Shown here piece by piece: positions 20,831 through 23,483 of a stretch of DNA of 46,305 nucleotides (positions are counted from its first letter, which is position 1; every line of letters starts with the position of its first letter). The notes under the pieces are model-generated. The model saw nothing but the letters and a program-made list of their open reading frames with translations, was not told the origin of the DNA and did not search any database. Source of the DNA: Lachnospiraceae bacterium (lineage in GTDB: Bacteria; Bacillota; Clostridia; Lachnospirales; Lachnospiraceae); contig JAKSPO010000014.1 in the NCBI GenBank assembly GCA_024404675.1, positions 1 to 46,305 of the forward strand. The letters are read 5' to 3'. Made by a program: the position numbers and the translations under genes.

Positions 20831-21753
20831 ACTTTCTTCGCCCTCTGCTTCTCTTTCTTGCGGCGCAAAGCCTTCGCACCGCCGATAACCTCAGTGATCT
20901 CCTGCGTGATAGCCGCCTGTCGTAAGCGGTTATACTGTACGGACAATTGCTGTAGCATCTTCTCACCGTTGTCGGTCGCCGTCTGCATCGCCAGCATTCG
21001 AGCGCTCTCCTCGGAGGCAAAGCTCTCCGTCAGCGCACCGTACAGATAACCCGTAACATAGTTCTTGGTCAGCTGGCCGAGTACCTGCTCGGGCGACGGG
21101 TAGATCAGATAGTCTCCGTCCTTAGCCATATCGCCCTTAGCCTTCATCGAGGCTCTCAGAAAGGAGCTTGTTCGAAGCGGCAGCAGCTGCTCCGTAACGA
21201 CCTCCTCCGTCAGCGTATTGACCATTCGCGTATATATGATATAGATCTCATCCAGCTCTTCCTTGTCGTACAGATCCATCAGGTATTCCATCATCACGCG
21301 CGCACGATGGAGCGACGGATTGTAGGCACTCGCATGAAAATCCTCCGCGATATGCTCGGAAAGATCACGGAAATTGTGTCGTCCGTATTCACCAACGAAG
21401 AACAGTCGGAAGATTTCGGCACCTTCTATCGCCTCTCTGGCCTTCTTCAGAATGTTGATGTTGTAGGCACCTGCCATTCCCTTATCACCGGTTACAATGA
21501 TAAAGCCCTTCCGCTTCACTGTCTCCTTATCGTCCTCCGGACGGTTATCGAAGTACAGGTGACGAATCTCCGGAAAATGCAGCAAAATGTCCGCAATCTG
21601 CTTCTGAAGCCCCAGGAAATACGGCTCCGTCTTCTGCAGCTGGTTCTTCGCCTTCTGCACCTTCATCGAGGAAACCATATACATCGCACGGGTAATCTTC
21701 ATCGTATCACGAATGCTTTTTATTCGGTTGTGGATTTCTCTTGCCTGCGCCAT
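20827..21753 (-). CDS. atpG: ATP synthase gamma subunit
   Basis: 308 residues, slightly longer than usual (~285-295), with a basic tail '[12 protein letters not shown]'. Conserved ends are intact: '[24 protein letters not shown]' type at the N-terminus (shown here in part as [14 protein letters not shown]) and '[20 protein letters not shown]' at the C-terminus; '[15 protein letters not shown]' matches the usual 'SDRGLCGGFN'. Gamma is the rotor shaft. The start overlaps the end of atpA by 34 bp, with GAGGAG inside atpA. Confidence 0.97.
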
Positions 21754-23483
21754 GCGAAAAACTCCTCAGTCGCCTTCTCTAAGCTTTCCTGCAGATCAGG
21801 GGTCATCTTCCCGGAAGCCTGCAGTACATTCAAAATATCACCGTAATTCTGATCCATATATTCCAAAAACTGTTCCCGGCAGGTACGTACCTCACCGGCC
21901 GGAATCTCGGCAAATGCATGCTTGCCTGCAGCGACCAGAAGAACGATCTGCTGCGCAACACTGAACGCATGCGTCAAAGGCTGCTTCAAAAGCTCCATCA
22001 GGGAACGACCGTGTGCCAGCTGCTTCTTCGTCTGCTCATCAAGATCCGAGGAGAACTGGGTGAATACTTCCATCTCCCGATACTGCGCAAGATCGATACG
22101 AATCGTACCGGCAGCCTTCTTCATGGCCTTCGTCTGTGCCGCGCCGCCTACACGGGATACGGAAAGACCGACATTAACTGCAGGGCGCTGTCCCGCATGG
22201 AACAGCTCACTCTCAAGGAAGATCTGACCATCCGTAATAGAAATTACGTTGGTCGGAATGTATGCAGAAACGTCTCCGGCCTGGGTTTCGATGATCGGAA
22301 GTGCCGTAATCGAACCGCCGCCAAGCTCGTCGGAGAGTCTTGCGGAACGCTCCAGCAGTCTTGAATGGAGATAGAATACATCTCCGGGATATGCCTCACG
22401 TCCCGGAGAACGCTCCAGAAGAAGCGAGATCGCACGATAGGCAACCGCATGCTTTGAGAGGTCATCGTAAATAATCAGCACGTCACGCCCCTTATTCATG
22501 AAGAACTCCGCGATCGCGGTACCGGAATACGGTGCCACATACTGTAACGGTGCGGGATCGGATGCCGTTGATGCAACCACGCAGGTATAATCAAGCGCAT
22601 CATTTTTACGAAGGACATTCGTAATCTGTGCAATCGTTGATGCCTTCTGGCCGATGGCAACATAAACGCAGATTACATTCTTACCCTTCTGGTTAATAAT
22701 CGTATCCAGTGCAATGGAGGTCTTTCCGGTCTGGCGGTCTCCGATAATCAGCTCACGCTGACCGCGGCCGATCGGGAACATCGAGTCGATTGCAAGGATA
22801 CCGGTCTCCATCGGCTTGCTGACCGGCTGTCTTTCGCTGATGGTCGGCGCCGGACGCTCAATCGGATAGAAATCCTCCTCAACAATCTTCTCCTCGCCGT
22901 CGAGCGGGTTTCCGAGCGCATCCACAACACGGCCGAGATAACCGTCTCCGACGGAGATGCCGGCCATTTTCCCTGTTCTTACAACATGGCTTCCTGCGCG
23001 GATCGCCGTGTCTCTGCCGAACAGTACGGCACAGACCTCATCACGTCGGATATCCTGAATCATGCCCTTTACGCCGCTGTCGAAAACAACAATCTCGCCG
23101 TAACGGACATGCTCGATTCCCGAGATATTGACGATACCGTCACCGACCCAGGTAACGTTACCGACCTCTCTTGAGAAGGCTTCCAGCTGGTACTCTTCAA
23201 TATTGGCACGAAGTCCGGACAAAACGTCGCGGGCTTTCTTCAATTCTCTTTCTTCATCCCCGAGCTTACTTGAAAGCTTCTCACGGAACTGCTCCATACG
23301 GCCGCGCTCGCTCCAGTCATACTCCTTCGTTCCGAAACGAAGGATGAAGCCGCTGCGAAGCGACGCATTCAGTTCAATTTCAATACTGACCTCCGGCTCC
23401 CCGGTCTCACGCATCACAAAGGAGCGGAAGCCCTCAAGCTGCTCCGTAGTCGGCGGGGTGACACATATCAATTTCGCTGTCAT
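21720..23483 (-). CDS. atpA: ATP synthase alpha subunit with N-terminal delta-like domain
   Basis: 587 residues, about 85 more than usual. From about residue 88 ('LSGLRANIEEYQLEAF') it is a normal alpha subunit: Walker A GDRQTGKT at 248-255, followed by 'TQAGDVSAYIPTNVISITDG' and 'VGLSVSRVGGAAQTKAMKK' type motifs. The extra N-terminus (residues ~10-73) follows the pattern of the delta-subunit C-terminal domain: 'TTEQLEGF', then an alternating strand, 'ASLRSGFILRFGTKEYDWS', and 'ERGRMEQFREKL', matching delta's 'GG...R.GD.V.DGSVRGRLERL'. No separate atpH exists between atpF and atpA. The start is fixed by an ATGA overlap with atpF. Alpha provides non-catalytic nucleotide sites in F1; the fused domain may replace part of delta in the peripheral stalk. 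Confidence 0.95.
   Translation of the reverse strand: MTAKLICVTPPTTEQLEGFRSFVMRETGEPEVSIEIELNASLRSGFILRFGTKEYDWSERGRMEQFREKLSSKLGDEERELKKARDVLSGLRANIEEYQLEAFSREVGNVTWVGDGIVNISGIEHVRYGEIVVFDSGVKGMIQDIRRDEVCAVLFGRDTAIRAGSHVVRTGKMAGISVGDGYLGRVVDALGNPLDGEEKIVEEDFYPIERPAPTISERQPVSKPMETGILAIDSMFPIGRGQRELIIGDRQTGKTSIALDTIINQKGKNVICVYVAIGQKASTIAQITNVLRKNDALDYTCVVASTASDPAPLQYVAPYSGTAIAEFFMNKGRDVLIIYDDLSKHAVAYRAISLLLERSPGREAYPGDVFYLHSRLLERSARLSDELGGGSITALPIIETQAGDVSAYIPTNVISITDGQIFLESELFHAGQRPAVNVGLSVSRVGGAAQTKAMKKAAGTIRIDLAQYREMEVFTQFSSDLDEQTKKQLAHGRSLMELLKQPLTHAFSVAQQIVLLVAAGKHAFAEIPAGEVRTCREQFLEYMDQNYGDILNVLQASGKMTPDLQESLEKATEEFFAWRRQEKSTTE

Follow-up and report, generated by a model that had tools for sequence, protein, structure and literature searches.

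A delta C-terminal domain fused to the ATP synthase alpha subunit in Lachnospiraceae, with natural multi-stalk enzymes as a tentative reading

How does an ATP synthase hold its stator when its operon has no gene for subunit delta? The question is raised by the atp operon in a 46,305-nucleotide stretch of DNA from a Lachnospiraceae bacterium (contig JAKSPO010000014.1 of assembly GCA_024404675.1, hereafter the window), whose alpha subunit carries an N-terminal extension. In the ordinary enzyme, the N-terminal domain (NTD) of delta sits on the three-fold axis atop F1 and anchors the delta/OSCP C-terminal domain (dCTD), which holds the b dimer. An F-type enzyme is usually assumed to have one stator, its H+/ATP ratio being set by the size of the c-ring. 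The answer we favor, with a probability of roughly 0.6, is that the operon encodes a complete F1Fo in which delta is cut to a dCTD tied to alpha, the tether replaces the NTD anchor, and up to three stators may be bound. The fused gene is laid out as follows (ORF, open reading frame; AF2, AlphaFold model).

21720 to 23483, minus strand: atpA, dCTD-alpha fusion, 587 residues, ATG start (ORF, Pfam, NCBIfam)
23268 to 23483, minus strand: delta/OSCP C-terminal domain, fusion residues 1-72 (Pfam PF00213, AF2, fold search)
23193 to 23264, minus strand: linker and probable retained alpha N-terminal helix, about residues 74-97 (AF2, alignment A1)

The NCBIfam atpA match spans residues 83-576 of the window alpha, and the extension is therefore about 80 residues long, in keeping with the roughly 85 extra residues given by an earlier note on this DNA. 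Fusion residues 2-70 align to positions 104-172 of the PF00213 (OSCP) profile, scoring 24.9 bits for the whole protein and 28.2 bits for the first 85 residues alone at a cut-off of 22.3. Profile positions 1-103 are unmatched, the chain beginning at the dCTD. The dCTD fold of residues 1-72 is supported by a confident AlphaFold model and by a fold search, in which the model aligns with PDB 9jc1 over residues 3-116; helix 85-97 is modelled at low pLDDT (block means 52-54). The strongly conserved dCTD positions are kept across 22 aligned rows. Residues 1-72 of the window alpha are a true dCTD, the b-binding half of delta, and OSCP/delta membership of the fusion is limited to this C-terminal domain. 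Both the delta-like domain that the earlier note had placed at residues ~10-73 and the missing delta NTD are thereby borne out. An unrelated N-terminal tail, the other candidate identity, is ruled out by the Pfam match and the fold.

The remaining genes of the operon lie on the same strand.

24252 to 24941, minus strand: atpB, a subunit, 229 residues, TTG start (ORF, Pfam)
24005 to 24232, minus strand: atpE, c subunit, 75 residues (Pfam)
23480 to 23968, minus strand: atpF, b subunit, 162 residues, C-terminal LYNQFLSEVG (ORF, Pfam)
20827 to 21753, minus strand: atpG, gamma, 308 residues, 34-base overlap with alpha (ORF, Pfam)
19433 to 20830, minus strand: atpD, beta, 465 residues (ORF, Pfam)
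18988 to 19404, minus strand: atpC, epsilon, 138 residues (ORF, Pfam)

The gene order is a-c-b-alpha-gamma-beta-epsilon, with successive gaps of 19, 36, -4, -34, -4, and 28 bases. The ATGA overlap of atpF and atpA, already seen by the earlier note, measures four bases (23480-23483) and leaves no room for a gene between b and alpha; gene order and gaps likewise confirm an operon without atpH. The alpha subunit scores 724.7 bits against the cut-off of 484.45 for the F-type atpA equivalog (NCBIfam TIGR00962), and a, b, c, beta, gamma, and epsilon each exceed their Pfam cut-offs. GDRQTGKT and SVSRVGGAAQ, which we take to be alpha motifs, are readable in atpA.

A search of the genome for atpH, which the earlier note had proposed as a check, did return a complete delta, and the extension is not thereby an unrelated tail. 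Contig C29 of the same genome carries a second and complete F-ATPase operon of eight subunits (locus L087), whose delta has 183 residues and scores 145 bits to PF00213. Twenty-one family genomes were picked for a weak best PF00213 match and searched again, three of them (G137, G154, and G277) being less than 90% complete. Each has a single, partial PF00213 match and exactly one F1 alpha (PF00306); 18 have the dCTD-alpha, one (G222) a full delta-alpha fusion, and two (G068 and G065) odd fusions. PF00213 and a lineage NTD profile (A3) gave no credible match to a separate delta NTD in trans in 20 of the 21, the exception being G222, whose NTD lies inside its fused protein. A3 matches at E 0.2-0.6 in G137, G142, G249, and G256 are at chance level, and the positive controls gave 2.5e-36 (G248), 2.2e-34 (G086), and 1.1e-32 (G218). 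Since the lineage-specific A3 missed the NTD of the second-operon delta in G000 and G189, absence of NTDs of that type rests on PF00213. No other delta was found in the 18 genomes with dCTD-alpha as the only F1 alpha. Because they combine one F1 alpha with no other delta or NTD found, their F1 should hold three dCTDs and no NTD, barring alpha cleavage or two forms of alpha.

PF00213 matches are present in 250 of the 299 family genomes, and matches to the fused-domain profile A1 in 246. At least 65 of the 299, window included, have delta sequence fused to alpha: this is the dCTD only in 45, one of which has it joined to b as well, and a full delta in 20, the loci of G147 and G089, which run off contig ends, being outside this count. 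From the family genomes we took 85 ATP synthase loci, chosen for fused frames together with comparison operons. They comprise 43 dCTD-alpha loci (T), 20 full delta-alpha fusions (F), 20 loci with separate delta and alpha (S), one b-dCTD-alpha (G068), and one b-dCTD with plain alpha (G065). The F proteins have 669-756 residues, and five of them match OSCP at 58-91 bits from profile positions 10-24 to 167-172 (Pfam), that is, as nearly full deltas. Delta-alpha fusions of 756 residues are encoded at L122:3444-5714 and at L240 (Eubacterium uniforme); in the former, about 80 extra C-terminal residues follow the end of the alpha match at residue 678. A close-alignment (A2) contig scan gave 152 relatives, a sample biased by the query, and the best 80 of the 152 are all fused (68 F, 12 T). 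Named F carriers among these 80 include Pseudobutyrivibrio ruminis, P. xylanivorans, Butyrivibrio fibrisolvens 16/4, 'Lactobacillus rogosae' ATCC 27753, Eubacterium uniforme, and Agathobacter ruminis, and the 12 T loci have titles of metagenome-assembled or uncultured organisms. Two ATP synthases in P. ruminis were reportedly the subject of a 2020 study. Two other families of the order, f8 and f17, also have the T frame. In a survey of the phylum, 51 of 398 genomes match at E 1e-13 or better; the fused frame is open in six (four in the family, G836 in another order, and G844 in another class), and stops lie within or just before the match in the other 45. The 603-residue dCTD-alpha of G844 (L272) is not part of the main clade; long branches connect it with L067, and it is possibly of independent origin.

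The history of the fusion was read from an 86-row tree built on the concatenated alpha core, beta, gamma, and a, with the fused columns excluded; an alpha-only tree, on which T took 16 changes with at least 4 forced, had poor resolution and gave way to concatenated trees. F and T rows are intermingled on the 86-row tree. NTD presence or absence requires 12 changes in the main clade (43 rows without, 34 with), at least seven of them forced by starred branches, and 13 changes, eight forced, over all 86 rows. If T, F, S, and the two odd fusions each keep a label of their own, T takes 15 changes (10 forced), or 17 (12 forced) once other families are added; the tree with other families omitted L282, whose alpha lies in two ORFs, and eight rows from one dCTD-alpha clade. 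We rely on the lower figures, since what is claimed is that the loss recurred and not how often. Starred pairs such as L134/L158 and L076/L171 unite an F with a T locus as sisters, and a starred set of nine F and four T includes the window and its same-genus relative. A single T clade was rejected in an AU test (p-AU 5.8e-33) on 29 rows hand-chosen to hold sister pairs, the tested group having been named after the trees were seen. We read the mixed states as repeated loss of the NTD from full delta-alpha fusions because losing an NTD is easier than regaining one; transfer or recombination could be another source. Fused versus separate changes three times in the main clade, all three forced, which counts against a single neat fusion; either there were several fusions, or a fused gene later came apart. 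Also against it is a clade of 19 T rows without any F relative in the sampled set. At 75-80% alpha identity, F loci have 41% identity in the NTD and 57% in the dCTD, and 13 S loci 32% and 43%. Since its divergence keeps pace with that of S proteins of equal alpha divergence, the NTD of F proteins seems to be still in use. The b subunit has the C-terminal pattern [YF][DENQ]xF[LI] in 35 of 43 T, 19 of 20 F, and 8 of 20 S operons, and not in G065, a distribution that fits a kept dCTD-b contact.

The odd fusions vary the theme. In G068 (L066:5656-7992), b, dCTD, and alpha form one chain of 778 residues, and two further PF00430 (b-like) matches on C23 are both below the cut-off; the chain may be an assembly error, as this is the only sampled genome of its genus. 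G065 (L065:6605-11117) has the dCTD on the C-terminus of b (227 residues), no extension on alpha, and a single 766-residue ORF for gamma and beta. G071, whose alpha also carries the dCTD, encodes a second b-like protein of 319 residues (L067:4483-5442) with two C-terminal repeats that resemble each other (E 3e-14), match the fused-domain profile weakly (E 0.06 and 0.024), and give a poor fold model (pLDDT 40); a double dCTD is no more than a possible reading of this protein.

The earlier note knew of no description of such an arrangement. On this point it does not stand, since the architecture is already in print: Ueno et al. (2025; PMC12229609; PDB 9jc1) built a deltaDeltaN-alpha fusion in Bacillus PS3 FoF1, and the resulting enzyme had as many as three stalks and three a subunits, with an H+/ATP of 5.8 versus 3.0. 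Their construct has the dCTD (PS3 residues 105-178) on every alpha N-terminus, the NTD deleted, and no free delta. The window has the same gene-level features, namely a dCTD on the alpha N-terminus, no NTD, and no delta gene in the operon. Unlike the window fusion, the PS3 one is lab-made; its linker is short, its epsilon was stripped of the C-terminal domain, and stalk number was measured in PS3 only. The same text predicts this arrangement for Acidaminococcus fermentans and names natural delta-alpha fusions without NTD (A. fermentans FoF1, UniProt G4Q3K6, and A0A1I2C5T3), as far as seen without a tree or survey. By description these candidates resemble the window in being natural gene fusions that lack the NTD. 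The window family differs in having Lachnospiraceae among its named relatives, full delta-alpha fusions, and repeated NTD loss. In Mycobacterium and Gordonia, delta is likewise fused to another stator subunit (7njk and others), though to b, whereas in the window only the dCTD is fused, and to alpha; N-ATPase operons share the lack of a delta gene (both from PMC5709465). N-ATPases differ in gene order, and the window alpha, at 601 bits, is below the alternate-F1 alpha cut-off of 750.5 (TIGR03324). All 62 butyrivibrio genomes are said to hold all F0F1 subunits in PMC4478896, where the portion available does not mention the fusion. 'Lachnospir' has no occurrences in the main text of PMC12229609, and no description of Lachnospiraceae delta-alpha fusions was found in searches of open-licence papers. 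Within the reach of these searches, three things are new: how widely the fusion is spread in Lachnospiraceae, the fusion of a full delta to alpha, and the repeated NTD loss. The fusion seen by the earlier note is real, and its interpretation as a whole is supported in part.

The proposed mechanism starts from the NTD, which restricts the ordinary enzyme to one stalk. With the peptide bond to alpha taking over the anchoring, the NTD would become dispensable, and every alpha would offer a dock for b, giving three docks per F1. By the engineered precedent, more than one b2-a stator could then bind, up to three, and the extra stators would pass more H+ per turn and lower the proton-motive force needed for ATP synthesis. 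The natural enzyme may thus resemble the engineered one in stalk number and H+/ATP. The wider proposal, that Lachnospirales have natural multi-stalk ATP synthases with two to three b2-a stators per c-ring, arising from delta-alpha fusion and at least seven parallel losses of the NTD, each of which would free three docks, we hold tentatively, at a little short of even odds. Several points weigh against extra stators. The sequence would fit a single stalk on one of the three docks just as well; 66% of the engineered PS3 particles on grids had one stalk or none (PMC12229609); no report of a purified natural dCTD-alpha enzyme was found; the single chain of G068 would give three b per F1, not three b dimers; and the window genome has a free delta that could in principle assist.

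The fusion might replace delta while one dCTD engages one b2-a stator, leaving two docks empty and the stoichiometry ordinary. The operon, with single copies of a and b, does not demand extra ones. In 20 family loci, alpha retains a full NTD under about the same constraint as that of separate deltas, so that an F1 with three copies of delta, one of them with its NTD seated, seems tolerable; of three NTDs, one at most could sit on the axis. We nevertheless consider this version rather unlikely, for in engineered PS3 this architecture gave a roughly twofold rise in H+/ATP and in the stoichiometry of a and b (PMC12229609), and once the NTD is gone no obstacle to further stators is known. Anchoring of the dCTD-alpha enzyme by the second-operon delta, with the fused domain as an auxiliary, could draw on the complete separate delta in the window genome and in the same-genus relative G189, yet it sits badly with the 18 related genomes whose sole F1 alpha is dCTD-alpha and with the strong dCTD conservation, and we regard it as highly improbable. 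We give equally little credence to an alpha made with and without the extension, by internal start or cleavage, which would leave one dCTD per F1 at canonical stoichiometry. An in-frame ATG does occur in the linker of 21 of 64 fused genes, but a Shine-Dalgarno-like site precedes an in-frame linker start in only 12 of the 64, against 24% of 1670 alpha-core control windows, and the two in-frame TTG codons of the window linker have none. Internal translation starts were set aside for this lack of enrichment.

If the wider proposal of natural multi-stalk enzymes holds, H+/ATP would be raised by adding stators, not c subunits, which would suit fermenters with a weak proton-motive force. The one-stator rule was broken by the engineered enzyme in 2025, and three natural candidates were named (PMC12229609). 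The present loci would add dozens, including the 18 sole-dCTD-alpha genomes and sister pairs with and without the NTD, and the full fusion is found in cultured P. ruminis, P. xylanivorans, Agathobacter ruminis, and Eubacterium uniforme. The question of natural multi-stalk enzymes is therefore directly testable.

As to the coupling ion, we take Q in helix 1 and E-S/T in helix 2 of c to be the Na+-type motif. By eye, the window c reads I...E-A-T and lacks it, a motif not being a transport assay; the second-operon c, used as reference, reads Q...E-T-T. Across the 85 loci, I-E-A-T is found in 21 T, 18 F, and 14 S operons, Q with S/T in six S operons only, and the whole presumed motif in no T or F operon. 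The c of 20 of the 43 T operons has M with E-S or E-T, that of one F operon has I-E-T-T, and that of one T operon has Q with E-A-L. The window enzyme is probably H+-driven; for c subunits of the M-E-T type we are unsure of the ion. One dCTD-alpha clade (L069, L072-L075, L077, L081, L086, and others) has c subunits of 111-150 residues with an N-terminal extension of about 30-70 residues, and larger a subunits (264-393 residues). The separate-delta operons L142, L157, and L279 have a tandem pair of c genes. In the window, tRNA-Gly(gcc) lies past the 3' end of the operon at 18206-18278, and tRNA-Leu(aag) at 45061-45145.
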